Position numbers and translations under genes: made by a program
Source of the DNA: Prosapia bicincta
Taxonomy: Eukaryota > Arthropoda > Insecta > Hemiptera > Cercopidae
Length of the DNA stretch: 64,000 bases
Assembly (NCBI GenBank): GCA_036971475.1
Contig: JBAIZL010000006.1
Span: forward strand, 65,222,898-65,286,897
Direction of reading: 5' to 3'
Part shown: piece by piece, positions 2,452-40,410 of the stretch
How the letters are laid out: every line of letters begins with the position of its first letter
How positions within the stretch are numbered: the first letter of the stretch is position 1
Notes under the pieces: model-generated
The model's input: only the letters and a program-made list of their open reading frames with translations
What the model was told of the DNA's origin: nothing
Database searches by the model: none

Positions 2452-2806
2452 TTAGTCTTTTATTCTTAAGATTTCATTGAATACGCTAAAAATAGTATTA
2501 TGCTTAGACTTTATTTTTACTTGCTCCTCAATAAGTATATTTTTAATAATATTTTGATATATTCTTAAATTCTCAATGATATTGATTCGTAAACCTTTTT
2601 GTGCGTGTTTAATTAACTTCATATTATGTATCTCTGGGAAATCATGTTTATCCATACAATGTGTTGCTAAATTTGATATATATATTAGGTTTTTCATATG
2701 GCTTTCAATTTTCTTTATACGTTCCTTTTATTTTTTTTTAGTTTGTCCTACATAGTATTTTTGACACATAGTACATTTTATACTGTAAATATCACGTAAA
2801 TACTAC
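2452..2806 (-). pseudogene. Penelope-like element, C-terminal GIY-YIG endonuclease fragment
   Basis: The minus-strand translation gives a GIY-YIG start (DIYSIKC, with Asp replacing the first Gly), a second Cys two residues on (CTMCQKYYVGQT), then a Lys-rich stretch and a tail containing ATHCMDKHDFPEIHNMKLIK. CxxC between GIY and Y-V/I-G is typical of the PLE endonuclease, and the tail matches the usual PLE C-terminus in style. A poly-A run (rc of 2725-2740) breaks the frame between YVGQTKKK and the tail. The RT domain is absent: the coding sequence stops, going upstream, at the junction with satellite-type sequence. The element is therefore a 5'-truncated PLE whose 3' end points to low coordinates, followed by a hammerhead remnant and a TA tract. 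Confidence 0.75.
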
Positions 2807-5800
2807 ACATAAACTACCAAAATACATGGACAAAATATTTCTTCTATTTCTTTTAGTTTGTCCTACATAGTATTTTTGACACATAGTACATTTTACACTG
2901 TAAATATCACGTAAATACTACACATAAACTACCAAAATACATGGACAAAATATTTCTTCTATTTCTTTTAGTTTGTCCTACATAGTATTTTTGACACATA
3001 GTACATTTTATACTGTAAATAACACGTAAATACTACACATAAACTACCAAAATACACGGACAAAATATTTCTTCTATTTCTTTTAGTTTGTCCTACATAG
3101 TATTTTTGGCACATAGTATATTTTATACTGTAAATATCACGTAAATACTACACATAAACTACCAAAATACATGGACAAAATATTTCTTCTATTTCTTTTA
3201 GTTTGTCCTACATAGTATTTTTGACACATAGTACATTTTATACTGTAAATATCACGTAAATACTACACATAAACTACCAAAATACATGGACAATATATTT
3301 CTTTTATTTTTTTTTAGTTTGTCCTACATAGTATTTTTGACACATAGTACGTTTTATACTGTAAATATCACGTAAATACTACACATAAACTACCAAAATA
3401 CACGGACAAAATATTTCTTTTATTTTTTTCAGTTTGTCCTACATAGTATTTTTGACACATAGTACACTTTATACTGTAAATATCACGTAAATACTATACA
3501 TAAACTAGCAAAATACATGGACAAAATATTTCTTTTATTTTTTTTAGTTTGTCCTACATAGTATTTTTGACACATAGTACATTTTATACTGTAAATAACA
3601 CGTAAATACTACACATAAACTACCAAAATACATGGACAAAATGTTTCTTCTATTTCTTTTAGTTTGTCCTACATAGTATTTTTGGCACATAGTATATTTT
3701 ATACTGTAAATATCACGTAAATACTACACATAAACTACCAAAATACATGGACAAAATATTTCTTCTATTTCTTTTAGTTTGTCCTACATAGTATTTTTGA
3801 CACATAGTACATTTTATACTGTAAATATCACGTAAATACTACACATAAACTACCAAAATACATGGACAATATATTTCTTTTATTTTTTTTTAGTTTGTCC
3901 TACATAGTATTTTTGACACCTAATACACTTTATACTGTAAATATCACGTAAATACTACACATAAACTACCAAAATACACGGACAAAATATTTCTTTTTTT
4001 TTTTTTAGTTTGTCCTACATAGTATTTTTGACACATAATACACTTTATACTGTAAATATCACGTAAATACTACACATAAACTACCAAAATACACGGACAA
4101 AATATTTCTTTTATTTTTTTTAGTTTGTCCTACATAGTATTTTTGTCACATTGTACACTTTATACTGTAAATATCACGTAAATACTATACATAAACTAGC
4201 AAAATACATGGACAAAATATTTCTTTTATTTTTTTTAGTTTGTCCTACATAGTATTTTTGACACATAATACACTTTATACTGTAAATATCACGTAAATAC
4301 TACACATAAACTACCAAAATACACGGACAAAATATTTCATTTATTTTTTTTTAGTTTGTCCTACATAGTATTTTTGACACATAGTACATTTTATACTGTA
4401 AATAGCACGTAAATACTACACATAAACTACCAAAATACACGGACAAAATATATCTTTTACTTTTTTTTAGTTTGTCCTACATAGTATTTTTGTCACATGG
4501 TACATTTTATACTGTAAATAGCACGTAAATACTACACATAAACTACCAAAATACACGAACAAAATATTTCTTTTATTTTTTTTAGTTTGTCCTACATAGT
4601 ATTTTTGACACATAATACACTTTATACTGTAAATATCACGTAAATACTACACATAAACTACCAAAATACATGGACAAAATATTTCTTTTATTTTTTTTAG
4701 TTTGTTCTACATAGTATTTTTGACTCATAATACACTTTATACTGTAAATATCACGTAAATACTACACATAAACTACCAAAATACATGGACAAAATATTTC
4801 TTTTATTTTTTTTAGTTTGTCCTACATAGTATTTTTGACACATAATACACTTTATACTGTAAATATCACGTAAATACTACACATAAACTACCAAAATACA
4901 TGGACAAAATATTTCTTTTATTTTTTTTAGTTTGTCCTACATAGTATTTTTGACACATAATACACTTTATACTGTAAATATCACGTAAATACTACACATA
5001 AACTACCAAAACACATGGACAAAATATTTCTTTTATTTTTTTTTAGTTTGTCCTACATAGTATTTTTGACTCATAGCACATTTTTTACTGTAAATAGCAC
5101 GTAAATACTACACATAAACTACCAAAATACACGGACAAAATATTTCTTTTATTTTTTTTTAGTTTGTCCTACATAGTATTTTTGACACATAATACACTTT
5201 ATACTGTAAATATCACGTAAATACTATACATAAACTACCAAAATACATGGACAAAATATTTCTTTTATTTTTTTTAGTTTGTCCTACATAGTATTTTTGA
5301 CACATAATACACTTTATACTGTAAATATCACGTAAATACCTCACATAAACTACCAAAATACATGGACAAAATATTTCTTTTATTTTTTTTAGTTTGTCCT
5401 ACATAGTATTTTTGACACATAATACACTTTATACTGTAAATATCACGTAAATACTACACATAAACTACCAAAATACACGGACAAAATATTTCTTTTATTT
5501 TTTTTTAGTTTGTCCTACATAGTATTTTTGACACATAGTACACTTTATACTGTAAATATCACGTAAATACTATACATAAACTACCAAAATACACGGACAA
5601 AATATATCTTTTACTTTTTTTTAGTTTGTCCTACATAGTATTTTTGTCACATGGTACATTTTATACTGTAAATAGCACGTAAATACTACACATAAACTAC
5701 CAAAATACACGGACAAAATATTTCTTTTATTTTTTTTTAGTTTGTCCTACATAGCATTTTTGACACATAATACACTTTATACTGTAAATATCACGTAAAT

Positions 5801-8800
5801 ACTACACATAAACTACCAAAATACATGGACAAAATATTTCTTTTATTTTTTTAGTTTGTCCTACATAGTATTTTTGACACATAGTACATTTTATACTGTA
5901 AATAGCACGTAAATACTACACATAAACTACCAAAATACACGGACAAAATATATCTTTTACTTTTTTTTAGTTTGTCCTACTTAGTATTTTTGCCACATGG
6001 TACATTTTATACTGTAAATAGCACGTAAATACTACACATAAGCTACCAAAATACACGAACAAAATATTTCTTTTATTTTTTTTAGTTTGTCCTACATAGT
6101 ATTTTTGACACATAATACACTTTATACTGTAAATATCACGTAAATACTACACATAAACTACCAAAATACACGGACAAAATATTTCTTTTATTTTTTTTTA
6201 GTTTGTCCTACATAGTATTTTTGACACATCATACACTTTATACTGTAAATATCAAGTAAATACTACACATAAACTACCAAAATACATGGACAAAATATTT
6301 CTTTTATTTTTTTAGTTTGTCCTACATAGTATTTTTGACACATAATACACTTTATACTGTAAATATCACGTAAATACTACACATAAACTACCACAATACA
6401 TGGACAAAATATTTCTTTTATTTTTTTTTTGTTTGTCCTACATAGTATTTTTGACACATAATACACTTTATACTGTAAATATCACGTAAATACTACACAT
6501 AAACTACCAAAATACACGGACAAAATATTTCTTTTATTTTTTTTTTAGTTTGTCCTACATAGTATTTTTGACACCTAATACACTTTATACTGTAAATATC
6601 ACGTAAATACTACACATAAACTACCAAAATACACGGACAAAATATTTCTTTTATTTTTTTTTAGTTTGTCCTACATAGTATTTTTGACACATAATACACT
6701 TTATACTGTAAATATCACGTAAATACTACACATAAACTACCACAATACATGAACAAAATATTTCTTTTATTTTTTTTTAGTTTGTCCTACATAGTATTTT
6801 TGACACATAATACACTTTATACTGTAAATATCACGTAAATACTACACATAAACTACCAAAATACACGGACAAAATATTTCTTTTATTTTTTTTTAGTTTG
6901 TCCTACATAGTATTTTTGACACATAATACACTTTATACTGTAAATATCACGTAAATACTACACATAAACTACCAAAATACACGGACAAAATATTTCTTTT
7001 ATTTTTTTTTAGTTTGTCCTACATAGTATTTTTGACACATAATACACTTTATACTGTAAATATCACGTAAATTCTACACATAAACTACCAAAATACACGG
7101 ACAAAATATTTCTTTTATTTTTTTTTAGTTTGTCCTACATAGTATTTTTGACACATAATACACTTTATACTGTAAATATCACGTAAATACTACACATAAA
7201 CTACGAAAATACATGGACAAAATATTTCTTTTATTTTTTTAGTTTGTCCTACATAGTATTTTTGACACATAATACACTTTATACTGTAAATATCACGTAA
7301 ATACTACACATAAACTACCACAATACATGGACAAAATATTTCTTTTATTTTTTTTTAGTTTGTCCTACATAGTATTTTTGACACATAATACACTTTATAC
7401 TGTAAATATCACGTATATACTACACATAAACTACCAAAATACACGGACAAAATATTTATTTTATTTTTTTTAGTTTGTCCTACATAGTATTTTTGACACA
7501 TAATACACTTTATACTGTAAATATCACGTAAATACTACACATAAACTACCAAAATACATGGACAAAATATTTCTTTTATTTTTTTTAGTTTGTCCTACAT
7601 AGTATTTTTGACACATAATACACTTTATACTGTAAATATCACGTAAATACTACACATAAACTACCAAAATACATGGACAAAATATTTCATTTATTTTTTT
7701 TTAGTTTGTCCTACATAGTATTTTTGACACATAGTACATTTTATACTGTAAATAGCACGTAAATACTACACATAAACTACCAAAATACACGGACAAAATA
7801 TTTCTTTTATTTTTTTTTAGTTTGTCCTACATAGTATTTTTGACACATAGTACACTTTATACTGTAAATATCACGTAAATACTATACATAAACTACCAAA
7901 ATACATGGACAAAATATTCCCTATATTTTTTTAGTTTGTCCTACATAGTATTTTTGACACATAATACACTTTATACTGTAAATATCACGTAAATACTACA
8001 CATAAACTACCAAAATACACGGACAAAATATTTCTTTTATTTTTTTTTAGTTTGTCCTACATAGTATTTTTGACACATAATACACTTTATACTGTAAATA
8101 TCACGTAAATACTACACATAAACTACCAAAATACATGGACAAAATATTTCTTTTATTTTTTTAGTTTGCCCTACATAGTATTTTTGACACATAATACACT
8201 TTATACTGTAAATATCACGTAAATACTACACATAAACTACCACAATACATGGACAAAATATTTCTTTTATTTTTTTATAGTTTGTCCTACATAGTATTTT
8301 TGACACATAATACACTTTATACTGTAAATATCACGTAAATACTACACATAAACTACCAAAATACACGGACAAAATATTTCTTTTATTTTTTTTTAGTTTG
8401 TCCTACATAGTATTTTTGACACATAGTACACTTTATACTGTAAATATCACGTAAATACTATACATAAACTACCAAAATACATGGACAAAATATTCCCTAT
8501 ATTTTTTTAGTTTGTCCTACATAGTATTTTTGACACATAATACACTTTATACTGTAAATATCACGTAAATACTACACATAAACTACCAAAATACACGGAC
8601 AAAATATTTCTTTTATTTTTTTTTAGTTTGTCCTACATAGTATTTTTGACACATAATACACTTTATACTGTAAATATCACGTAAATACTACACATAAACT
8701 ACCAAAATACATGGACAAAATATTTCTTTTATTTTTTTAGTTTGCCCTACATAGTATTTTTGACACATAATACACTTTATACTGTAAATATCACGTAAAT

Positions 8801-11800
8801 ACTACACATAAACTACCACAATACATGGACAAAATATTTCTTTTATTTTTTTTTAGTTTGTCCTACATAGTATTTTTGACACATAATACACTTTATACTG
8901 TAAATATCACGTAAATACTACACATAAACTACCAAAATACACGGACAAAATATTTCTTTTATTTTTTTTTAGTTTGTCCTACATAGTATTTTTGACACAT
9001 AATACACTTTATACTGTAAATATCACGTAAATACTACACATAAACTACCAAAATACACGGACAAAATATTTCTTTTATTTTTTTTTAGTTTGTCCTACAT
9101 AGTATTTTTGACACATAATACACTTTATACTGTAAATATCACGTAAATACTACACATAAACTACCACAATACATGGACAAAATATTTCTTTTATTTTTTT
9201 TTTGTTTGTCCTACATAGTATTTTTGACACATAATACACTTTATACTGTAAATATCACGTAAATACTACACATAAACTACCAAAATACACGGACAAAATA
9301 TTTCTTTTATTTTTTTTTAGTTTGTCCTACATAGTATTTTTGACACATAATACACTTTATACTGTAAATATCACGTAAATACTACACATAAACTACCAAA
9401 ATACACGGACAAAATATTTCTTTTATTTTTTTTTAGTTTGTCCTACATAGTATTTTTGACACATCATACACTTTATACTGTAAATATCAAGTAAATACTA
9501 CACATAAACTACCAAAATACATGGACAAAATATTTCTTTTATTTTTTTAGTTTGTCCTACATAGTATTTTTGACACATAATACACTTTATACTGTAAATA
9601 TCACGTAAATACTACACATAAACTACCACAATACATGGACAAAATATTTCTTTTATTTTTTTTTTGTTTGTCCTACATAGTATTTTTGACACATAATACA
9701 CTTTATACTGTAAATATCACGTAAATACTACACATAAACTACCAAAATACACGGACAAAATATTTCTTTTATTTTTTTTTAGTTTGTCCTACATAGTATT
9801 TTTGACACCTAATACACTTTATACTGTAAATATCACGTAAATACTACACATAAACTACCAAAATACACGGACAAAATATTTCTTTTATTTTTTTTTAGTT
9901 TGTCCTACATAGTATTTTTGACACATAATACACTTTATACTGTAAATATCACGTAAATACTACACATAAACTACCACAATACATGAACAAAATATTTCTT
10001 TTATTTTTTTTTAGTTTGTCCTACATAGTATTTTTGACACATAATACACTTTATACTGTAAATATCACGTAAATACTACACATAAACTACCAAAATACAC
10101 GGACAAAATATTTCTTTTATTTTTTTTTAGTTTGTCCTACATAGTATTTTTGACACATAATACACTTTATACTGTAAATATCACGTAAATACTACACATA
10201 AACTACCAAAATACACGGACAAAATATTTCTTTTATTTTTTTTTAGTTTGTCCTACATAGTATTTTTGACACATAATACACTTTATACTGTAAATATCAC
10301 GTAAATACTACACATAAACTACCAAAATACATGGACAAAATATTTCTTTTATTTTTTTAGTTTGCCCTACATAGTATTTTTGACACATAATACACTTTAT
10401 ACTGTAAATATCACGTAAATACTACACATAAACTACCACAATACATGGACAAAATATTTCTTTTATTTTTTTTTAGTTTGTCCTACATAGTATTTTTGAC
10501 ACATAATACACTTTATACTGTAAATATCACGTAAATACTACACATAAACTACCAAAATACACGGACAAAATATTTCTTTTATTTTTTTTTAGTGTGTCCT
10601 ACATAGTATTTTGACACATAATACACTTTATACTGTAAATATCACGTAAATACTACACATAAACTACCAAAATACACGGACAAAATATTTCTTTTATTTT
10701 TTTTTAGTTTGTCCTACATAGTATTTTTGACACATAATACACTTTATACTGTAAATATCACGTAAATACTACACATAAACTACGAAAATACATGGACAAA
10801 ATATTTCTTTTATTTTTTTAGTTTGTCCTACATAGTATTTTTGACACATAATACACTTTATACTGTAAATATCACGTAAATACTACACATAAACTACCAC
10901 AATACATGGACAAAATATTTCTTTTATTTTTTTTTAGTTTGTCCTACATAGTATTTTTGACACATAATACACTTTATACTGTAAATATCACGTATATACT
11001 ACACATAAACTACCAAAATACACGGACAAAATATTTATTTTATTTTTTTTAGTTTGTCCTACATAGTATTTTTGACACATAATACACTTTATACTGTAAA
11101 TATCACGTAAATACTACACATAAACTACCAAAATACATGGACAAAATATTTCTTTTATTTTTTTTAGTTTGTCCTACATAGTATTTTTGACACATAATAC
11201 ACTTTATACTGTAAATATCACGTAAATACTACACATAAACTACCAAAATACATGGACAAAATATTTCATTTATTTTTTTTTAGTTTGTCCTACATAGTAT
11301 TTTTGACACATAGTACATTTTATACTGTAAATAGCACGTAAATACTACACATAAACTACCAAAATACACGGACTAAATATTTCTTTTATTTTTTTTTAGT
11401 TTGTCCTACATAGTATTTTTGACACATAGTACACTTTATACTGTAAATATCACGTAAATACTATACATAAACTACCAAAATACATGGACAAAATATTCCC
11501 TATATTTTTTTAGTTTGTCCTACATAGTATTTTTGACACATAATACACTTTATACTGTAAATATCACGTAAATACTACACATAAACTACCAAAATACACG
11601 GACAAAATATTTCTTTTATTTTTTTTTAGTTTGTCCTACATAGTATTTTTGACACATAATACACTTTATACTGTAAATATCACGTAAATACTACACATAA
11701 ACTACCAAAATACATGGACAAAATATTTCTTTTATTTTTTTAGTTTGCCCTACATAGTATTTTTGACACATAATACACTTTATACTGTAAATATCACGTA

Positions 11801-13345
11801 AATACTACACATAAACTACCACAATACATGGACAAAATATTTCTTTTATTTTTTTTTAGTTTGTCCTACATAGTATTTTTGACACATAATACACTTTATA
11901 CTGTAAATATCACGTAAATACTACACATAAACTACCAAAATACACGGACAAAATATTTCTTTTATTTTTTTTTAGTTTGTCCTACATAGTATTTTTGACA
12001 CATAATACACTTTATACTGTAAATATCACGTAAATACTACACATAAACTACCAAAATACACGGACAAAATATTTCTTTTATTTTTTTTTAGTTTGTCCTA
12101 CATAGTATTTTTGACACATAATACACTTTATACTGTAAATATCACGTAAATACTACACATAAACTACCAAAATACATGGACAAAATATTTCTTTTATTTT
12201 TTTAGTTTGTCCTACATAGTATTTTTGACACATAATACACTTTATACTGTAAATATCACGTAAATACTACACATAAACTACCACAATACATGGACAAAAT
12301 ATTTCTTTTATTTTTTTTTAGTTTGTCCTACATAGTATTTTTGACACATAATACACTTTATACTGTAAATATCACGTATATACTACACATAAACTACCAA
12401 AATACATGGACAAAATATTTCTTTTATTTTTTTTAGTTTGTCCTACATAGTATTTTTGACACATAATACACTTTATACTGTAAATATCACGTAAATACTA
12501 CACATAAACTACCAAAATACATGGACAAAATATTTCATTTATTTTTTTTTAGTTTGTCCTACATAGTATTTTTGACACATAGTACATTTTATATTGTAAA
12601 TAGCACGTAAATACTACACATAAACTACCAAAATACACGGACAAAATATTTCTTTTATTTTTTTTTAGTTTGTCCTACATAGTATTTTTGACACATAGTA
12701 CACTTTATACTGTAAATATCACGTAAATACTATACATAAACTACCAAAATACATGGACAAAATATTCCCTATATTTTTTTAGTTTGTCCTACATAGTATT
12801 TTTGACACATAATACACTTTATACTGTAAATATCACGTAAATACTACACATAAACTACCAAAATACATGGACAAAATATTTCTTTTATTTTTTTTAGTTT
12901 GTTCTACATAGTATTTTTGACTCATAATACACTTTATACTGTAAATATCACGTAAATACTACACATAAACTACCAAAATACATGGACAAAATATTTCTTT
13001 TATTTTTTTTTAGTTTGTCCTACATAGTATTTTTGACACATAGTATATTTTATACTGTAAGTAGCACGTAAATACTACACATAAACTACCAAAATACACG
13101 GACAAAATATTTATTTTATTTTTTTAGTTTGTCCTACGTATAATTTTTGACACATAATACACTTTATACTGTAAATATCACGTAAATACTACACATAAAC
13201 TACCAAAATACATGGACAAAATATTTCTTTTTTTTTACTTTGTCCTACATAGTATTTTTGGCACATAATACACTTTATACTGTAAATATCACGTAAATAC
13301 TACACATATACTAGCAAAATGCATGGACAAAATAATCAGACAATC
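2724..13345. repeat. 115-bp satellite array (about 92 copies) built from two PLE fragments
   Basis: The anchor gtttgtcctacatag recurs every 114-117 bp from 2741 to about 13238; length variation is mostly in a T-run. Each monomer has two halves. The first, read on the minus strand, encodes the GIY-YIG piece DIYSIKCTMCQKYYVGQT. The second, read on the plus strand, is the sequence around cataaactaccaaaatac, which in the neighbouring PLE (13463-13497) encodes HKLAKYMDKII of the RT region. The left edge runs without a break into the minus-strand PLE (2452-2806) and the right edge into the plus-strand PLE (from about 13311). Early copies (2741-3780) carry the variant cttctatttctttt and later ones cttttatttttttt. 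Block duplications are visible inside the array. Confidence 0.97.
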
Positions 13346-14690
13346 CATACAAACAACATCAAACAAATCCACCCTAAAGCACCTACCCTCCGCACTCTCC
13401 CTAAAATTCACAAACCCAATGTCCTCATCCAAGCCATCATCAACTACCTAATTGCCAATGCACATAAACTAGCAAAATACATGGACAAAATAATCGGATA
13501 ATTCATAAACTTGAACACAGAAACACACATAAAAAACAGAACAAACCTCATAAACAAAATTTAAGACATAAACATACCACACAATTTAACACTGCTATCA
13601 CTCGACAGAACAAACACCAACATACCCATACCCAAAACGCTCAACATCCTAGAAACCCAAATAATACAGAAAAACTTATCAAACCCACAGTACCGAAATT
13701 ATAAACATCCTCCAAACCATCATCAAACACAACTATTTCACCCACAACTCAAACTTCTGATCACAACCAGATGGTCTACCATGAAAAGTCCTATCAGAAG
13801 TGCCCTAAGCGGAATTTTTCTACAACACAGAAAACAATGCACACGCACACAAAATCATTTAGTGCAGCTGATAAATCGCTGATATCATAACACTATATAG
13901 AGGTAACTCCCGACAATGCGAAAAACTCCTCACCTACGCTAATAAAATACACCCAAAACTAAACTTCACTTCAGAAATTGAAACCAACCGATCCCTAAAC
14001 TTCCTCGACCTAACAATAACAAAATGCCACACACAAAAAAAAGCTTCAACATTTACAGGGAACCCATAACGACAGACACACCCTTAACACCTCAAACCAT
14101 CCTATCCAAAACATACACGCTGCCTTCAGATCCATGCTCCATAGACTTGAAGAAGTCCCAATGACCACAGAAAACATAAACAAAGAACTAAACAATTAAA
14201 TATTTAGCATACACAAATGGATGCAACACCATAATAGACAAAATATAATACAAAATACAAAAAAACACTAAAATTAACACTAGAGACAGGGAAAACAAAT
14301 AGGGCATACATAAACAAAACAACAAAAAAATTGCCCGCAAATTTCATAAAATAGGATACAAAATAGCATACAAAACTAATAACAAGTTACAATACAATAT
14401 ACAACACAACACCAACAACAAGGATAAACTACAAGCACCAGGCGTATAAAAACTGAACTGCGACAAATGTAACAAATTCTACATTGGACAAACAGGTCAT
14501 AGCTTTGAACAAAGAGTCGAGGAACACAAGTAGAACACCAACTCAACATTTTACAATCACATAAAAAACATGACAGAAGTACACAGACATTTACCATAAC
14601 CTAGAAATCCTACACATCAACAAAAAAGGACCACAATTTAAAAACACTAGAACAATATAAAAATTTTCAGACATGTGCCTTAAACGTCGC
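13306..14690 (+). pseudogene. Penelope-like retroelement, RT to GIY-YIG, heavily degraded
   Basis: Known family role: PLEs encode a reverse transcriptase joined to a C-terminal GIY-YIG endonuclease. In order along the plus strand I see an RT start with KAPTLRTLPKIHKPN (13376-13420) and HKLAKYMDKII (about 13463-13495); LNILETQII (about 13640-13668); QPDGLP (about 13765-13785), the place of the PLE motif before the catalytic strand; a damaged catalytic box where only ADII of the usual YADD remains (13878-13889); SLNFLDLTITK (about 13995-14027); HRLEEVPM (about 14145-14165); then the endonuclease part with CDKCNKFYIGQTG (about 14461-14500) and EEHK. A last block near 14620-14660 (GPQFK, LEQYK) is the usual PLE tail. 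Several frameshifts and stops make it non-functional. The N-terminal region before RT is missing and replaced by the satellite. Confidence 0.88.
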
Positions 14691-15771
14691 ACGTTTAACT
14701 GTTTTGGAGCATCTCTTGGGCAACAACGCTAGGCAAACACTGAATCAGCGAATCCCCGACCACTCTAAATGTCAACTAAATAATTTATCATCTTTTAATG
14801 TTTCGAGAGCTGTACGTTTACTATTAGATTAAACATAATGTTTATAGTAAATACAGCGATAGGATCACAATAATGTAATTTAAATCATTCGCTACTATTA
14901 TATTTCACGTATATCACAAGACTTAACTAGGCGACATTAAAGAAAATATTAATATTTTCAAATACAAGAAGTATTACAAACTAGTTTTTTCCTGTTTTTC
15001 CTGCAATTCTTTGTGTTTTAAACAAATTTGCTTTTTTGTTCTAGGTGGGAATTGAATACTGTACAGTCATCTATTTTGTGGGTAAATATTATAGACTATT
15101 TTAATTATCTTAATCTACTTCTGTGTATACTTTGGTTTGTATTTGAAACTTAATTTAACGCGATATATTTATTCGCACGTTTTTATGCATTTCCATTATG
15201 TATATGTATAAACTAAATAAAGATTTAATACAGATTTGTTTTTGAGGAGTAGGGGGGTTGTAACTGTTGATTACTAGTCTAAAGTTTGTCAGTTACACCT
15301 CAAATATTTTCCTGGATTTCTTCAACGATTTATGTGTAATGAGTATCTAAAATCAATATTAAAATTATATTTGAGCTGTATTTTAATTCAGGGGATTATT
15401 TAAAAAAATGTACATGGGTCATAGTAATAATCAGAAAATACTGACACGCGTTTCATTCCCACATCATTAACACCAGTGACACTCCTATATATTCATAATA
15501 ATCAACTCTAAGCTATAAGGTTGCCAAAGCTGAGTCAGTAGATTCCCCAACTTTACTTGTTAGCAATACAGCTAGACCAGCATCGTCTCTTGCTATGGCT
15601 CGGGAATTATAACGCGAATGGCCTGATCTGAAATCCAGAACTCGACATTCTTTTTCTAACATTATACGCTTCGTTAGGAGCAGAGTTTCTCAATACAATG
15701 CATATAAAATGAACCAAAAACATGTCCTGAAGCTATATTGACAATTATTGTTGGCTATTGTCACGGTAGGT
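14691..15771. other. AT-rich DNA downstream of the PLE, nothing recognised
   Basis: The first part may still belong to the PLE 3' region, but I could not find a hammerhead core here. No open frame, tandem repeat or RNA gene is apparent. Confidence 0.5.

Positions 15772-16604: not shown

Positions 16605-16653
<49 letters not shown>
16605..16653. repeat. (TA)n microsatellite
   Basis: Pure TA tract directly upstream of a plus-strand hammerhead motif. It occupies the place that, in the complete inverted-repeat copies, marks the outer end of the minus-strand arm. Confidence 0.92.
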
Positions 16654-16657
<4 letters not shown>

Positions 16658-16659
16658 TA

Positions 16660-16722
16660 GATAATTATTTTTCTGAAGATGCTGGTACTATTTTATCGGC
16701 GAAAAGCTTTGAATAAATATAT
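16660..16722 (+). ncRNA. Hammerhead ribozyme motif, minimal PLE type (AGCU stem III)
   Basis: CTGAAGA at 16673-16679, stem II GCTGG (16681-16685) pairing with TCGGC (16696-16700) using wobble pairs, GAAA at 16701-16704, palindromic AGCT at 16705-16708, TT, then GAAT. All conserved core nucleotides of a hammerhead (CUGANGA, GAAA, UH) are present. Stem I is weak (U-rich strand against GAAUAAA). A four-base palindromic stem III is known to make such minimal ribozymes work as dimers. It is followed at 16799 by an AT tract, as in the other copies. Confidence 0.65.
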
Positions 16723-16794
16723 TCATTAAAAGTATTCTTGTTTTTGAAATATTTTTAATTTATTAAATATATTACAAGAAAACATATCACCACA

Positions 16795-16798
<4 letters not shown>

Positions 16799-16853
<55 letters not shown>
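16799..16853. repeat. (AT)n microsatellite between two hammerhead elements
   Basis: Pure AT tract. It is 3' of the plus-strand hammerhead at 16660 and also 3' of the minus-strand hammerhead at 16898, so it is shared by two adjoining elements. Confidence 0.92.
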
Positions 16854-16856
<3 letters not shown>

Positions 16857-16897
16857 AGTAAAAATATTTCAATTACAAGATTAGTTTTAATTATACA

Positions 16898-16955
16898 GTA
16901 TTCAAGCTTTTCGCCGATAAAATAACTATTAGCAACATCAAGAAAACAAAGACAT
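16898..16955 (-). ncRNA. Hammerhead motif with broken core (left arm)
   Basis: On the minus strand GAAA and the AGCU palindrome are intact, but the expected CCTGAAGATG has become CTTGATG through a small deletion and a substitution. The CUGANGA core is lost, so self-cleavage is not expected. Confidence 0.55.
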
Positions 16956-17016
16956 CATTATTTTTCCTGAAGATGTTAATACTTATTTTATCGGCGAAAA
17001 GCTTTGAATAATTTAT
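16956..17016 (+). ncRNA. Hammerhead ribozyme motif, minimal PLE type (AGCU stem III)
   Basis: CTGAAGA at 16967-16973, stem II strands GTTAAT and ATCGGC (one mismatch, two wobbles), GAAA at 16996-16999, AGCT, TT, then GAATAA at 17006. Stem I can form from tttttc before the core and GAATAA after it. The core is complete; activity would depend on dimerisation through AGCU. Confidence 0.65.
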
Positions 17017-17047
17017 AATTGAAACTATTCTCATATTTGAAGTATTC

Positions 17048-18307
17048 ATGAGCTATATTGGAAGAAAACGTATCACTAAATTTAATTCATAGCCTGTATG
17101 ACTTTTTATAATAAATGAAAAGACAAGAAGTAGCATAATATTATTTGCTATTTAGTTCAATTTTAATTATACAAAATTATCTTCTACTCATAAATGACAA
17201 TATCGATAAATAATTTTAAAATAAATCTTTGAAATTATATTCGTCATCAGAATATACTATATTGTCAATGTTTCGAATCACGTAATAACACTAGTTATGC
17301 CTATATAATTTTGTTGTGTAGTTGTGTATGTTATTATAATTATTTTGATGACAAACACTGTTTCAAGTACAGGCATGTATTTTAAAATTATCTATATATT
17401 TTATAATTTATATATTGTGTCTATTATATTCTTTTATATTTGTTAATAACTAATTAGTATTTTATTAACTTATTTGTGCTAATAATTACGTAATTTATTA
17501 TGGATTCTAAGCCTGAAGATAGTGGGTAAATAGTAGTAGAATCGATGCCAGCTTAAAATTGAGTAGGGTGGCACTAGACTCACGTTTAAACAGTGTTTTT
17601 GTTACATATTATAATGTTTTTTAGTGTACACACAAATTATGTTAAGTCTCTAGATGCCGAACGTGTTAAATGATTAAACGTTTGCAGAAACCTACACAAA
17701 TTTTATTTTTAAGAAAATTACAATTTATTTCCGGCATTAAAGTTTTCCCCTATTTTATACTGCGTCGGTGGTACAAATTTAATTTTATGTCAGTTCGTTT
17801 CAAACACAATACACCATGTCTGCAGCGAAACATTTTACCGATACTTTGACTGGTTTCGGTTCGGTAATAAGTAAACCCCTCGAGAAATAACATATATTTA
17901 CTTCTGGCACTTAACCGCTCTCTGTACTAGCTTTCTGTACTAACTTTACAATAATTTCTTACCAATTGATTGTTGTTGACAATTTCTATATTAAAATTTA
18001 TTATATTTGCTTTATTTATGGTAGATACAAGTTTAAACTGAAACGTTATTGCATCGTTATTTTCATAATTCCAGTTTATCACGTTTGCCCTAGTTAAAAA
18101 ACCATTTTGAATTATGGTGTAAATTTACATGATATCTATAAATAAAGTTGTTTACATAATAACTAATACAATTACGCTGTGACACCTTCAAGAATTCTTT
18201 AAATATTCAGTTAGTTTTGTAAAATCAGTATGTTTTAAATTGGATGCTAATTAACTAACTGTAATAATGATAAATATATAACAACAACCCTTGCTACAAA
18301 TATTTAA
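17048..18307. other. AT-rich DNA, nothing firmly recognised
   Basis: No gene recognised. On the minus strand around 17225-17262 there is CTGATGA followed by GAAT/ATTTC that could be a stem II, but GAAA is not in place. At best it is an eroded hammerhead. Confidence 0.45.
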
Positions 18308-32360: not shown

Positions 32361-35300
32361 ATAAACTCTCTGGAAGGCATTGTGCGATACAGACGTAGGC
32401 TTCTGACGTAACGGCAGTTGTTCCGAATTGTTTCCACACCACATAAATACTTTACGTACATACTCGGGCAATAAAACCACTACGTTCTCCATTGGCTCCA
32501 TTTCGTTGAGTTAAACTCTCTGGAAGGCATTGTGCGATACAGACGTAGGTTTCTGACGTAACGGCAGTTGTTCCGAATTGTTTCCACACCACATAAATAC
32601 TTTACGCACATATTCGGGCAATAAAACCACTACGTTCTCCATTGGCTCCATTTCGTTGAGTTAAACTCTCAGGAAGGCATTGTGCGATACAGACGTAGGC
32701 TTCTGACGTAACGGCAGTGGTTCCGAATTTTTGCCACACTACATAAATACTTTACGCACATACTCGGGCAATAAAACCACTACGTTCTCCATTGGCTCCA
32801 TTTCGTTGAGTTAAACTCTCTGGAAGGCATTGTGCGATACAGACGTAGGTTTCTGACGTAACGGCAGTGGTTCCGAATTTTGTCCACACCACATAAATAC
32901 TTTACGCACATACGCGGGCAATAAAACCACTACGTTCTCCATTGGCTCCATTTCGTTGAGTTAAACTCTCTGGAAGGCATTGTGCGATACAGACGTAGGT
33001 TTCTGACGTAACGGCAGTTGTTCCGAATTTCTTCCACACCACATAAATACTTTATGCACATACTCGGGCAATAAAACCACTACGTTCTCCATTGGCTCCA
33101 TTTCGTTGAGTTAAACCCTCTGGAAGGCATTGTGCGATACAGACGTAGGTTTCTGACGTAACGGCAGTTGTTCCGAATTTTTTCCACACCACATAAATAC
33201 TTTACGCACATACTCGGGCAATAAAACCACTACGTTCTCCATTGGCTCCATTTCGTTGAGTTAAACTCTCTGGAAGGCATTGTGCGATACAGACGTAGGT
33301 TTCTGACGTAACGGCAGTTGTTCCGAATTGTTTCCACACCACATAAATACTTTACGCACATATTCGGGCAATAAAACCACTACGTTCTCCATTGGCTCCA
33401 TTTCGTTGAGTTAAACTCTCAGGAAGGCATTGTGCGATACAGATGTAGGCTTCTGACGTAACGGCAGTGGTTCCGAATTTTTTCCACACCACATAAATAC
33501 TTTACGCACATACTCGGGCAATAAAACCACTACGTTCTCCATTGGCTCCATTTCGTTGAGTTAAACTCTCTGGAAGGCATTGTGCGATACAGACGTAGGT
33601 TTCTGACGTAACGGCAGTGGTTCCGAATTTTTTCCACACCACATAAATACTTTACGCACATACTCGGGCAATAAAACCACTACGTTCTCCATTGTCTCCA
33701 TTTCGTTGAGTTAAAATCTCTGGAAGGCATTGTGCGATACAGACGTAGGTTTCTGACGTAACGGCAGTGGTTCCGAATTTTTTCCACACCACATAAATAC
33801 TTTACGCACATACTCGGGCAATAAAACCACTACGTTCTTCATTGGCTCCATTTCGTTGAGTTAAACTCTCTGGAAGGCATTGTGCGATACAGACGTAGGT
33901 TTCTGACGTAACGGCAGTGGTTACGAATTTTTTCCACACCACATAAATACTTTATGCACATACTCGGGCAATAAAACCACTACGTTCTCCTTTGGCTCCA
34001 TTTCGTTGAGTTAAACTCTCTGGAAGACGTTGTGCGATACAGACGTAGGTTTCTGACGTAACGGCAGTGGTTCCGAATTTTGTCCACACCACATAAATAC
34101 TTTACGCACATACGCGGGCAATAAAACCACTACGTTCTCCATTGGCTCCATTTCGTTGAGTTAAACTCTCTGGAAGGCATTGTGCGATACAGACGTAGGT
34201 TTCTGACGTAACGGCAGTTGTTCCGAATTTTTTCCACACCACATAAATACTTTATGCACATACTCGGGCAATAAAACCACTACGTTCTCCATTGGCTCCA
34301 TTTCGTTGAGTTAAACCCTCTGGAAGGCATTGTGCGATACAGACGTAGGTTTCTGACGTAACGGCAGTTGTTCCGAATTTTTTCCACACCACATAAATAC
34401 TTTACGCACATACTCGGGCAATAAAACCACTACGTTCTCCATTGGCTCCATTTCGTTGAGTTAAACTCTCTGGAAGGCATTGTGCGTTACAGTCGTAGGT
34501 TTCTGACGTAACGGCAGTGGTTCCGAATTTTTTCCACACCACATAAATACTTTACGCACATACTCGGGCAATAAAACCACTACGTTCTCCATTGGCTCCA
34601 TTTCGTTGAGTTAAACTCTCTGGAAGGCATTGTGCGATACAGACGTAGGCTTCTGACGTAACGACAGTGGTTCCGAATTTTTTCCACACCACATAAATAC
34701 TTTATGCACATACTCGGGCAATAAAACCACTACGTTCTCCATTGGCTCCATTTCGTTGAGTTAAACCCTCTGGAAGGCATTGTGCGATACAGACGTAGGT
34801 TTCTGACGTAACGGCAGTGGTTCCGAATTTTTTCCACACCACATAAATACTTTACGCACATACGCGGGCAATAAAACCACTACGTTCTCCATTTTCTCCA
34901 TTTCGTTGAGTTAAACTCCTTGGAAGGCATTGTGCGATACAGACGTAAGTTTCTGACGTAACGGCAGTGGTTCCGAATTTTTCCACACCACATAAATACT
35001 TTACGCACATACTCGGGCAATAAAACCACTACGTTCTCCATTGGCTCCATTTCGTTGAGTTAAACTCTCTGGAAGGCATTGTGCGATACAGACGTAGGCT
35101 TCTGACGTAACGACAGTGGTTCCGAATTTTTTCCACACCACATAAATACTTTACGCACATACTCGGGCAATAAAACCACTACGTTCTCCATTGGCTCCAT
35201 TTCGTTGAGTTAAACTCTCTGGAAGGCATTGTGCGATACAGACGTAGGCTTCTGACGTAACGACAGTGGTTCCGAATTTTTTCCACACCACATAAATACT

Positions 35301-38300
35301 TTACGCACATACTCGGGCAATAAAACCACTACGTTCTCCATTGACTCCATTTCGTTGAGTTAAACTCTCTGGAAGGCATTGTGCGATACAGACGTAGGCT
35401 TCTGACGTAACGACAGTGGTTCCGAATTTTTTCCACACCACATAAATACTTTATGCACATACTCGGGCAATAAAACCACTACGTTCTCCATTGGCTCCAT
35501 TTCGTTGAGTTAAACTCTCTGGAAGGCATTGTGCGATACAGACGTAGGCTTCTGACGTAACGACAGTGGTTCCGAATTTTTTCCACACCACATAAATACT
35601 TTACGCACATACTCGGGCAATAAAACCACTACGTTCTCCATTGGCTCCATTTCGTTGAGTTAAACTCTCTGGAAGGCATTGTGCGATACAGACGTAGGCT
35701 TCTGACGTAACGACAGTGGTTCCGAATTTTTTCCACACCACATAAATACTTTACGCACATACTCGGGCAATAAAACCACTACGTTCTCCATTGACTCCAT
35801 TTCGTTGAGTTAAACTCTCTGGAAGGCATTGTGCGATACAGACGTAGGCTTCTGACGTAACGACAGTGGTTCCGAATTTTTTCCACACCACATAAATACT
35901 TTATGCACATACTCGGGCAATAAAACCACTACGTTCTCCATTGGCTCCATTTCGTTGAGTTAAACTCTCTGGAAGGCATTGTGCGATACAGACGTAGGCT
36001 TCTGACGTAACGACAGTGGTTCCGAATTTTTTCCACACCACATAAATACTTTACGCACATACTCGGGCAATAAAACCACTACGTTCTCCATTGGCTCCAT
36101 TTCGTTGAGTTAAACTCTCTGGAAGGCATTGTGCGATACAGACGTAGGCTTCTGACGTAACGACAGTGGTTCCGAATTTTTTCCACACCACATAAATACT
36201 TTATGCACATACTCGGGCAATAAAACCACTACGTTCTCCATTGACTCCATTTCGTTGAGTTAAACTCTCTGGAAGGCATTGTGCGATACAGACGTAGGTT
36301 TCTGACGTAACGGCAGTTGTTCCGAATTGTTTCCACACCACATAAATACTTTACGCACATATTCGGGCAATAAAACCACTACGTTCTCCATTGGCTCCAT
36401 TTCGTTGAGTTAAACTCTCAGGAAGGCATTGTGCGATAAAGACGTAGGCTTCTGACGTAACGGCAGTGGTTCCGAATTTTTTCCACACCACATAAATACT
36501 TTACGCACATACTCGGGCAATAAAACCACTACGTTCTCCATTGGCTCCATTTCGTTGAGTTAAACTCTCTGGAAGGCATTGTGCGATACAGACGTAGGTT
36601 TCTGACGTAACGGCAGTGGTTCCGAATTTTTTCCACACCACATAAATACTTTACGCACATACTCGGGCAATAAAACCACTACGTTCTCCATTTTCTCCAT
36701 TTCGTTGAGTTAAACTCTCAGGAAGGCATTGTGCGATACAGACGTAGGCTTCTGACGTAACGGCAGTGGTTCCGAATTTTTTCCACACCACATAAATACT
36801 TTACGCACATACTCGGGCAATAAAACCACTACGTTCTTCATTGGCTCCATTTCGTTGAGTTAAACTCTCTGGAAGGCATTGTGCGATACAGACGTAGGTT
36901 TCTGACGTAACGGCAGTGGTTCCGAATTTTTTCCACACCACATAAATACTTTATGCACATACTCGGGCAATAAAACCACTACGTTCGCCATTGGCTCCAT
37001 TTCGTTGAGTTAAACTCTCTGGAAGGCGTTGTGCGATACAGACGTAGGTTTCTGACGTAACGGCAGTGGTTCCGAATTTTGTCCACACCACATAAATACT
37101 TTATGCACATACTCGGGCAATAAAACCACTACGTTCTCCATTGGCTCCATTTCGTTGAGTTAAACTCTCTGGAAGGCATTGTGCGATACAGACGTAGGTT
37201 TCTGACGTAACGGCAGTTGTTCCGAATTTTTTCCACACCACATAAATACTTTATGCACATACTCGGGCAATAAAACCACTACGTTCTCCATTGGCTCCAT
37301 TTCGTTGAGTTAAACCCTCTGGAAGGCATTGTGCGATACAGACGTAGGTTTCTGACGTAACGGCAGTTGTTCCGAATTTTTTCCACACCACATAAATACT
37401 TTACGCACATACTCGGGCAATAAAACCACTACGTTCTCCATTGGCTCCATTTCGTTGAGTTAAACTCTCTGGAAGGCATTGTGCGTTACAGTCGTAGGTT
37501 TCTGACGTAACGGCAGTGGTTCCGAATTTTTTCCACACCACATAAATACTTTACGCACATACTCGGGCAATAAAACCACTACGTTCTCCATTGGCTCCAT
37601 TTCGTTGAGTTAAACTCTCTGGAAGGCATTGTGCGATACAGACGTAGGCTTCTGACGTAACGACAGTGGTTCCGAATTTTTTCCACACCACATAAATACT
37701 TTATGCACATACTCGGGCAATAAAACCACTACGTTCTCCATTGGCTCCATTTCGTTGAGTTAAACCCTCTGGAAGGCATTGTGCGATACAGACGTAGGTT
37801 TCTGACGTAACGGCAGTGGTTCCGAATTTTTTCCACACCACATAAATACTTTATGCACATACTCGGGCAATAAAACCACTACGTTCTCCATTGACTCCAT
37901 TTCGTTGAGTTAAACTCTCTGGAAGGCATTGTGCGATACAGACGTAGGCTTCTGACGTAACGACAGTGGTTCCGAATTTTTTCCACACCACATAAATACT
38001 TTACGCACATACTCGGGCAATAAAACCACTACGTTCTCCATTGACTCCATTTCGTTGAGTTAAACTCTCTGGAAGGCATTGTGCGATACAGACGTAGGCT
38101 TCTGACGTAACGACAGTGGTTCCGAATTTTTTCCACACCACATAAATACTTTATGCACATACTCGGGCAATAAAACCACTACGTTCTCCATTGGCTCCAT
38201 TTCGTTGAGTTAAACTCTCTGGAAGGCATTGTGCGATACAGACGTAGGCTTCTGACGTAACGACAGTGGTTCCGAATTTTTTCCACACCACATAAATACT

Positions 38301-40410
38301 TTACGCACATACTCGGGCAATAAAACCACTACGTTCTCCATTGGCTCCATTTCGTTGAGTTAAACTCTCTGGAAGGCATTGTGCGATACAGACGTAGGCT
38401 TCTGACGTAACGACAGTGGTTCCGAATTTTTTCCACACCACATAAATACTTTATGCACATACTCGGGCAATAAAACCACTACGTTCTCCATTGACTCCAT
38501 TTCGTTGAGTTAAACTCTCAGGAAGGCATTGTGCGATACAGACGTAGGCTTCTGACGTAACGACAGTGGTTCCGAATTTTTTCCACACCACATAAATACT
38601 TTATGCACATACTCGGGCAATAAAACCACTACGTTCTCCATTGGCTCCATTTCGTTGAGTTAAACTCTCTGGAAGGCATTGTGCGATACAGACGTAGGCT
38701 TCTGACCTAACGACAGTGGTTCCGAATTTTTTCCACACCACATAAATACTTACGCACATACTCGGGCAATAAAACCACTACGTTCTTTATTGGCTCCATT
38801 TCGTTGAGTGTAACCCTCTGGTAGGCATTGTGCGATACAGACGTAGGTTTCTGACGTAACGGCAGTGGTTCCGAATTTTTTCCACACCACATAAATACTT
38901 TACGCACATACTCGGGCAATAAAACCACTACGTTCTCCATTGGCTCCATTTCGTTGAGTTAAACCCTGTGGAAGGCATTGTGCGATACAGACGTAGGCTT
39001 CTGACGTAACGACAGTGGTTCCGAATTTTTTCCACACCACATAAATACTTTATGCACACACTCGGGCAATAAAACCACTACGTTCTCCATTGGCTCCATT
39101 TCGTTGAGTTAAACTCTCAGGAAGGCATTGTGCGATACAGACGTAGGCTTCTGACGTAACGACAGTGGTTCCGAATTTTTTCCACACCACATAAATACTT
39201 TACGCACATACTCGGGCAATAAAACCACTACGTTCTCCATTGGCTCCATTTCGTTGAGTTAAACTCTCTGGAAGGCATTGTGCGATACAGACGTAGGCTT
39301 CTGACGTAACGACAGTGGTTCCGAATTTTTTCCACACCACATAAATACTTTATGCACATACTCGGGCAATAAAACCACTACGTTCTCCATTGGCTCCATT
39401 TCGTTGAGTTAAACTCTCTGGAAGGCATTGTGCGATACAGACGTAGGCTTCTGACGTAACGACAGTGGTTCCGAATTTTTTCCACACCACATAAATACTT
39501 TATGCACATACTCGGGCAATAAAACCACTACGTTCTCCATTGGCTCCATTTCGTTGAGTTAAACTCTCTGGAAGGCATTGTGCGATACAGACGTAGGCTT
39601 CTGACGTAACGACAGTGGTTCCGAATTTTTTCCACACCACATAAATACTTTACGCACATACTCGGGCAATAAAACCACTACGTTCTCCATTGGCTCCATT
39701 TCGTTGAGTTAAACTCTCTGGAAGGCATTGTGCGATACAGACGTAGGCTTCTGACGTAACGACAGTGGTTCCGAATTTTTTCCACACCACATAAATACTT
39801 TACGCACATACTCGGGCAATAAAACCACTACGTTCTCCATTGGCTCCATTTCGTTGAGTTAAACTCTCTGAGAGGCTTCGTGCGATGTAGACATGGCTTT
39901 CGGTGTTCAGAATGACGTAAAGGGAAGAGATTTGAACGACAGTTGTTCCGAATTTTTTCCACACCACATAAATACTTTACGCACATACTCGGGCAATAAA
40001 ACCACTACGTTCTCCATTGGCTCCATTTCGTTGAGTTAAACTCTCTGAGAGGCTTCGTGCGATGTAGACATGGCTTTCGGTGTTCAGAATGACGTAAAGG
40101 GAAGAGATTTGAACGACAGTTGTTCCGAATTTTTTCACACCACATAAATACTTTACGCACATACTCGGGCAATAAAACCACTACGTTCTCCATTGGCTCC
40201 ATTTCGTTGAGTTAAACTCTCTGAGAGGCTTCGTGCGATGTAGACATTGCTTTCGGTGTTCAGTATGACGTAAAGGGAAGAGATTTGAACGACAGTTGTT
40301 CCGACTTTTTTTTTACACCATATAAATACTCTACGCACATACTCGAGGCAAAAAAACCACTTGCCTGCTCCATTGACTCCATTTCGCTGCCTAAAACCTC
40401 TCTGATAGCT
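32361..40410. repeat. 150-bp satellite array (about 53 copies) with 177-bp copies at the right edge
   Basis: The anchor gagttaaactctctggaagg recurs every 150 bp; from 32513 to 39861 there are 49 periods with only two single-base deletions. The last three copies (from 39861, 40038 and 40214) are 176-177 bp long and contain extra sequence around ttcagaatgacgtaaaggga where the 150-bp form has a shorter gacgtaac block. Both lengths are multiples of three. Minus-strand frames such as MEPMENVVVLLPEYVRKVF run through most of a monomer, but a stop recurs once per monomer unless a rare variant removes it. I recognise no protein family. Flanks are decayed partial copies (40321-40410). Confidence 0.97.

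Follow-up and report, generated by a model that had tools for sequence, protein, structure and literature searches.

A 10.6-kb tandem array in the genome of Prosapia bicincta is probably a single-locus satellite born in place, in which a 115-bp stretch lying across the head-to-head join of two 5'-truncated Penelope-like elements (PLEs) was tandem-duplicated to 92 copies. Birth and growth in place appear well supported by the comparison of the array with dispersed PLE copies, from which we infer both, as well as the order of the steps. A satellite can rarely be traced to its origin, as homogenisation and spread remove the evidence of how it began. At the present locus the seed junction, both parents and, at the left edge, parental letters are all preserved. 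This makes the probable duplication breakpoints readable and allows a search for the ancestor in relatives.

The array and its chimeric unit

The window analysed is a 64-kb stretch at 65.22-65.29 Mb on a 140.6-Mb contig of a 2.2-Gb assembly; its G+C content is 32.7% and it contains no N. The array occupies window positions 2725-13334 (plus strand) and consists of 92 units of 115/116 bp, as determined by TRF (period 115-116, 92.0 copies, 95% matches), unit splitting and junction pattern search, in agreement with the approximately 92 copies of a 115-bp monomer counted in an earlier sequence-only reading of this DNA. Splitting at a conserved anchor yielded 91 complete units of 111-117 bp, with a mean identity of 97.2% to their consensus and a mean pairwise identity of 95.5%.

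The unit is composed of the putative GIY-YIG end of one element, PLE A, on the minus strand and of about 35 bp of the reverse transcriptase of another, PLE B, on the plus strand, the two being joined by their 5' ends. On its minus strand the unit translates as DIYSIKCIMCQKYYVGQT, the sequence assigned to the GIY-YIG end of PLE A, as had been claimed for each monomer, and on its plus strand as THKLPKYMDKI. The peptide HKLAKYMDKII reported earlier is accurate in part: KLAK is found in PLE B copies and in the PLE B stub at the right edge of the array, whereas the unit itself reads KLPK, with codon CCA (P) instead of the GCA or GCT (A) of that stub and of 12 aligned PLE B copies. In the first copy the PLE B piece spans ~2803-2804 to 2837 (plus strand) and matches 7 of 29 B loci over 31-35 bp at 88-97% (E-values 1e-6 to 3e-8), while the same piece (2803-2837) gave zero matches to 37 A loci. 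Both halves thus match dispersed PLE copies, which upholds the description of the unit as a chimera of two divergent, 5'-truncated PLEs. No Rfam family reached its gathering score in a scan of the window, and the predicted single-strand DNA fold of the unit is not unusual (z -0.23).

Two junctions define the unit. J1, the head-to-head A/B birth junction, has A on its left and B on its right and lies at 2801-2804 in the first of its 92 copies. J2, the unit/unit duplication junction, has B on its left and A on its right and lies at 2837-2838 in its first copy; no clear microhomology was apparent there when the sequence was read against dispersed copies. A BLAST search with the unit returned 40 partial matches and missed the array since very common words are skipped, and pattern searches of the whole assembly were used instead. 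The J1 pattern (28 bases, up to 3 mismatches) matched 92 times in the 2.2 Gb, always within the array, as compared to 1 match for a reversed control pattern; copies elsewhere that had diverged like PLE copies (~13%) could slip past this limit. The J2 pattern (31 positions, up to 2 mismatches) matched 87 times, always at the array locus, and its control 0 times. A satellite spread over the genome was accordingly rejected, both patterns matching the array locus alone. The search for a single-copy, unamplified junction, proposed together with the sequence-only reading, found none in the genome with J1 at up to 3 mismatches, and for that reason we infer the single-copy ancestor.

The array displays head-to-tail units, concerted homogeneity and exact multi-unit duplications in its core, as is characteristic of tandem arrays. 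The abundance that would define a satellite, in the form of many loci or long heterochromatic blocks, is not seen, as one 10.6-kb array was found at one locus. It is better called a single-locus satellite-like array.

Parent elements at the two edges

On the left, the array is bordered by a 5'-truncated 3' piece of PLE A extending from its GIY-YIG region to its 3' end (2231 to ~2801-2803, minus strand), which runs unbroken into the first array unit. Its 3' end is marked by an (AT)n tract at 2172-2230 (29.5 AT units, TRF), and many dispersed A copies likewise carry such a tract at or near their 3' end. Part of this piece (2452-2700) has at least 41 further genome matches at 87-94%, among the best 40 of 893 candidates scored. 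Most of 37 A loci align through the left array boundary, mostly to 2789-2803. The collinearity of these dispersed copies across the boundary bears out the earlier statement that the left edge continues into a GIY-YIG PLE on the minus strand. The 18 of 37 loci that were aligned in detail each continue beyond the boundary into their own upstream sequence. This argues against the tandem repeat being a normal internal part of a PLE family, comparable to the 3' UTR repeats of Ogre elements and merely expanded here. Several published satellites did arise in that manner (PMC7004042), but J1 and J2 are found at the array locus only and dispersed copies differ, for which reason the unit as a regular PLE part was rejected and such an origin is hardly credible.

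The assignment of the left parent deserves a comment. Its window piece scores 13.4 bits against the Pfam GIY-YIG model, below the cut-off of 22.6, and 15.2 bits against GSHPx (a glutathione-peroxidase model), slightly above the GIY-YIG score and likewise below its own cut-off. The PLE A label therefore rests on the comparison with PLE B and on homologues. The GIY-YIG region of PLE A shares 33% protein identity with the GIY region of PLE B (E 3e-14), and A and B are, as judged by sequence, different families. Three ORFs of PLE A copies gave no GIY-YIG match in Pfam, and the ORF of copy L038, which carries a YVDD stretch, gave no Pfam match; among the homologues of the latter, PF00078 (RVT_1) is present in 17 of 36 and PF26215 in 29 of 36.

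On the right, the array ends in B1, a 50-bp PLE B stub at 13300-13349 (plus strand) that exceeds the B part of the unit by about 15 bp. It matches 12 of the 29 fetched B loci over 46-53 bp at 84-94%, and two more over shorter stretches. It is followed by B2, a PLE B fragment covering the reverse transcriptase to the GIY-YIG region (13351-14673, plus strand) and truncated at both ends according to its alignment with B copies: the other copies shown extend beyond 14673, most by ~145 bp. The start of B2 lies upstream of the B1 stub in B coordinates. This restart ahead of the stub marks the element at 13351-14673 as a fragment of its own, and it was consequently rejected as the direct source of the right edge. 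B2 lacks both ends and is separate or re-copied; the parent proper is the B1 stub. The proposal that the right edge continues into the reverse transcriptase of a plus-strand PLE thus holds for 50 bp, and the longer B2 does not belong to that continuation. Likewise, A and B do border the array, as in the claim that both parents are still attached, but the plus-strand parent amounts to the stub only. The join of B1 to B2, J3 (13349-13351), has one genome match at up to 3 mismatches; it could have been produced by a template jump at the time of insertion or by rearrangement afterwards.

PLE B has at least 52 genome matches, including three in the window, most of the others at 85-89% (best 40 of 6902 candidates scored). 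The ORF of copy L041 reaches RVT_1 above the Pfam cut-off (40 versus 29.6 bits), and homologues such as P0003 and P0004 carry PF00078; the B2 pieces of the window itself gave no Pfam match. A CNKFYIGQTG stretch is present in PLE B, a Pfam search of B itself gave no GIY-YIG match, and precomputed PF01541 (GIY-YIG) is found in 7 of 95 PLE B homologues. The named homologues are insect proteins, the best from Periplaneta americana, with the exception of one labelled Bartonella apis.

At the left edge A runs past the J2 position into its own flank, and at the right edge B runs past it by about 15 bp, as predicted by the duplication of a segment spanning J1. It is very improbable that these edges are assembly joins or the array an assembly artefact: the window is free of N, other A copies stay collinear with it through the left edge, as do other B copies through the right edge as far as 13349, and the units show position-dependent variants, with 51 distinct sequences among 91, unlike an assembler loop. 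Assembly joins at the edges had been named as an observation that would contradict the sequence-only reading.

Origin of the junction and growth of the array

The proposed course of events can be summarized as follows. PLE A on the minus strand and a piece of PLE B on the plus strand would first have met 5' to 5' at J1, probably as one of the recurrent head-to-head PLE insertion products of this genome. A tandem duplication from ~2723 in A to ~2837 in B would then have created J2 and a two-unit array, and unequal exchange or similar recombination may have enlarged the array and homogenised its core.

In order to evaluate the first step, the PLE neighbours were counted in 66 fetched loci (37 obtained via A or unit searches and 29 via B), excluding the copies L001 and L039 of the window itself. 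Neighbours no more than 50 bp apart were head-to-head in 12 cases (11 without L035, which overlaps L018), tail-to-tail in 0 and direct in 7; when gaps up to 1000 bp were allowed, the numbers rose to 15, 3 and 22, respectively, in a set of best-scoring matches that is not a random sample and in which some loci overlap or duplicate each other. A published account likewise names head-to-head as the inverted arrangement seen most often among Penelope elements (PMC3846280). All 15 head-to-head neighbours of the sample are A-A or B-B, each within one family, which makes the A-B join of the window unusual.

A head-to-head insertion product is the likeliest origin of J1. The main rival, a credible though less probable account, is that A and B inserted independently and that their 5' sides were brought together at J1 by a subsequent deletion or inversion, followed by the same growth of the array. 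Truncation of B2 at both ends would suit this rival, with J3 as an extra rearrangement, and so would the restriction of each sampled head-to-head pair to one family. The absence of a 3' end of its own in B2 counts against the preferred model as well, as it is not predicted by a simple insertion primed at both 3' ends, and J3 calls for an extra step. Further points against that model are the lack of clear microhomology at J2, the ordinary fold of the unit, the absence of a significant parental trend in the right half of the array and the sub-threshold GIY-YIG score of the A piece. The rival, in turn, would have both 5'-truncation points meet at J1 by coincidence, and the recurrence of abutting head-to-head pairs (11 distinct versus 0 tail-to-tail) makes a special deletion unneeded. 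Searches of the genome with ~1 kb of the left and right flanks found no other copy with a readable empty site, and inspection of the window flanks by eye revealed no obvious target-site duplication.

Abutting head-to-head PLE pairs with unequal 5' truncations, 3' ends pointing outward and gaps of -7 to 1 bp were observed at L002, L004, L011, L027 and L060, and are candidate seeds for further satellites. The recurrent head-to-head joins of this genome offer a testable supply of such seeds. That head-to-head PLE insertion acts as a recurrent satellite nursery, its 5'/5' junctions supplying unique chimeric seeds of which one has grown here, is a speculative and rather unlikely extension.

The growth of the array has left a pattern in its units. 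Diversity at the edges together with homogeneity in the core is the expected outcome of unequal exchange. Edge units of the array keep older letters, and both edges are still attached to their parents. At two columns in which most of the array departs from dispersed A copies, the parental letters are present in 10/10 and 9/10 of the first ten units and in 16/81 and 10/81 of the remaining 81 (Fisher p ~1e-6 at each column, values that overstate certainty because the units are non-independent and the boundary after the tenth unit was set with the data in view). Six further columns that depart from the most common parental letter do not distinguish the first ten units in this manner. Scored over 91 columns, agreement with the parental letters weakens the farther a unit lies from its closest edge (rho -0.30, p 0.004). 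The left half accounts for this trend (rho -0.41, p 0.006), and the right half alone shows no significant rise of parental letters toward its edge (rho -0.20, p 0.17). Compared with all other units, the first ten average 94.2% identity, the middle units 95.7% and the last six 93.9%. Of the first 29 units, 22 have a sequence that occurs once, as against 13 of the remaining 62, a boundary likewise set afterwards. Within the core, stretches of 795, 721 and 535 bp recur without a mismatch at distances of 3003, 3579 and 3234 bp. No regular higher-order period was detected, the mean identity being nearly flat by lag (0.956-0.962 for lags 1-5).

The long exact blocks of the core indicate copying of several units at a time, which would also be compatible with growth on an extrachromosomal circle carrying the J1 segment, by rolling circle and with reinsertion at the source by homology. 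Rolling circle replication is a recognised proposal for satellite growth and is listed as such in PMC3648361. The genome-wide J1 and J2 patterns nevertheless revealed no second locus, and collinearity with the parents persists at both edges, an outcome that local unequal exchange gives without extra steps. Amplification on a circle is therefore quite unlikely, and growth in place is retained as the preferred reading.

Comparison with known systems and the neighbourhood of the array

The earlier remark that a birth of this kind is rarely visible is reasonable, with the qualification that satellites derived from transposable elements, including PLE-related ones, are already in print (PMC3648361, PMC7004042, PMC11846391). 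The tandem repeats CRM1TR and CRM4TR of maize are described as wholly retrotransposon-derived, CRM1TR being located at two neighbouring loci, and a start by illegitimate joins followed by enlargement and homogenisation has been proposed for them (PMC3648361). Some maize units resemble the present one in combining parts of two variants of one element, but they originate from the LTR-UTR region of a single element subfamily (PMC3648361), whereas the Prosapia bicincta unit joins two PLE families head-to-head, with both parents at the array ends. The satellites of Lathyrus sativus were likewise expanded from retrotransposon sequence, in that case from tandem repeats pre-existing in the 3' region of Ogre (PMC7004042); J1 and J2 of the 115-bp array, in contrast, were found in no dispersed copy.

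Penelope itself has been associated with satellites in the flea beetle Omophoita octoguttata, where some satellites are similar to Penelope and most matches of satellite DNA to transposable elements are to Penelope (PMC11846391). The similarity reported there is partial and concerns whole satellite families, and the accessible text of that report describes no birth junction or attached parents. In Adineta vaga, Penelope copies have been described that are joined 5' to 5' and have palindromes at the join; self-priming was given as the cause, and no satellite arises from these junctions in the accessible text (PMC3846280). The Prosapia bicincta junction differs in that it joins A to B and is present 92 times. 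No satellite that arose where two PLE families meet head-to-head, and that still has both parents at its ends, was encountered in the literature searched, which included the accessible text of PMC9659126, PMC3833285 and PMC12910113 and left most subscription-journal papers outside its scope.

The neighbourhood of the array, at 46% of the contig, is satellite-rich. Four long tandem arrays, with units of 115, 80, 150 and 167 bp, are distributed between 2725 and 62283 and fill ~38% of the window. The 150-bp array comprises 51 copies at 32362-40063 (TRF), and its pattern has 54 genome matches, all within contig positions 65255253-65263301. Its minus frame is protein-like, LNEMEPMENVVVLLPEYVRKVFMWCGKNSEPLS, with no Pfam model above cut-off. 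To the left of PLE A, a short sequence at 1775-1928 has many dispersed matches in both orientations (mostly to 626-779 of the left-flank query) and is perhaps a small palindromic element. A 45-bp stretch immediately to the right of B2 (14734-14779) has eight dispersed matches at 81-93% in a flank that is otherwise near-unique. Further to the right, at 16653-17086, a repeat with the motif CGGCGAAAAGCTTTGAATA is found in inverted copies near (AT)n tracts, and is also present at L002, L006 and L032.
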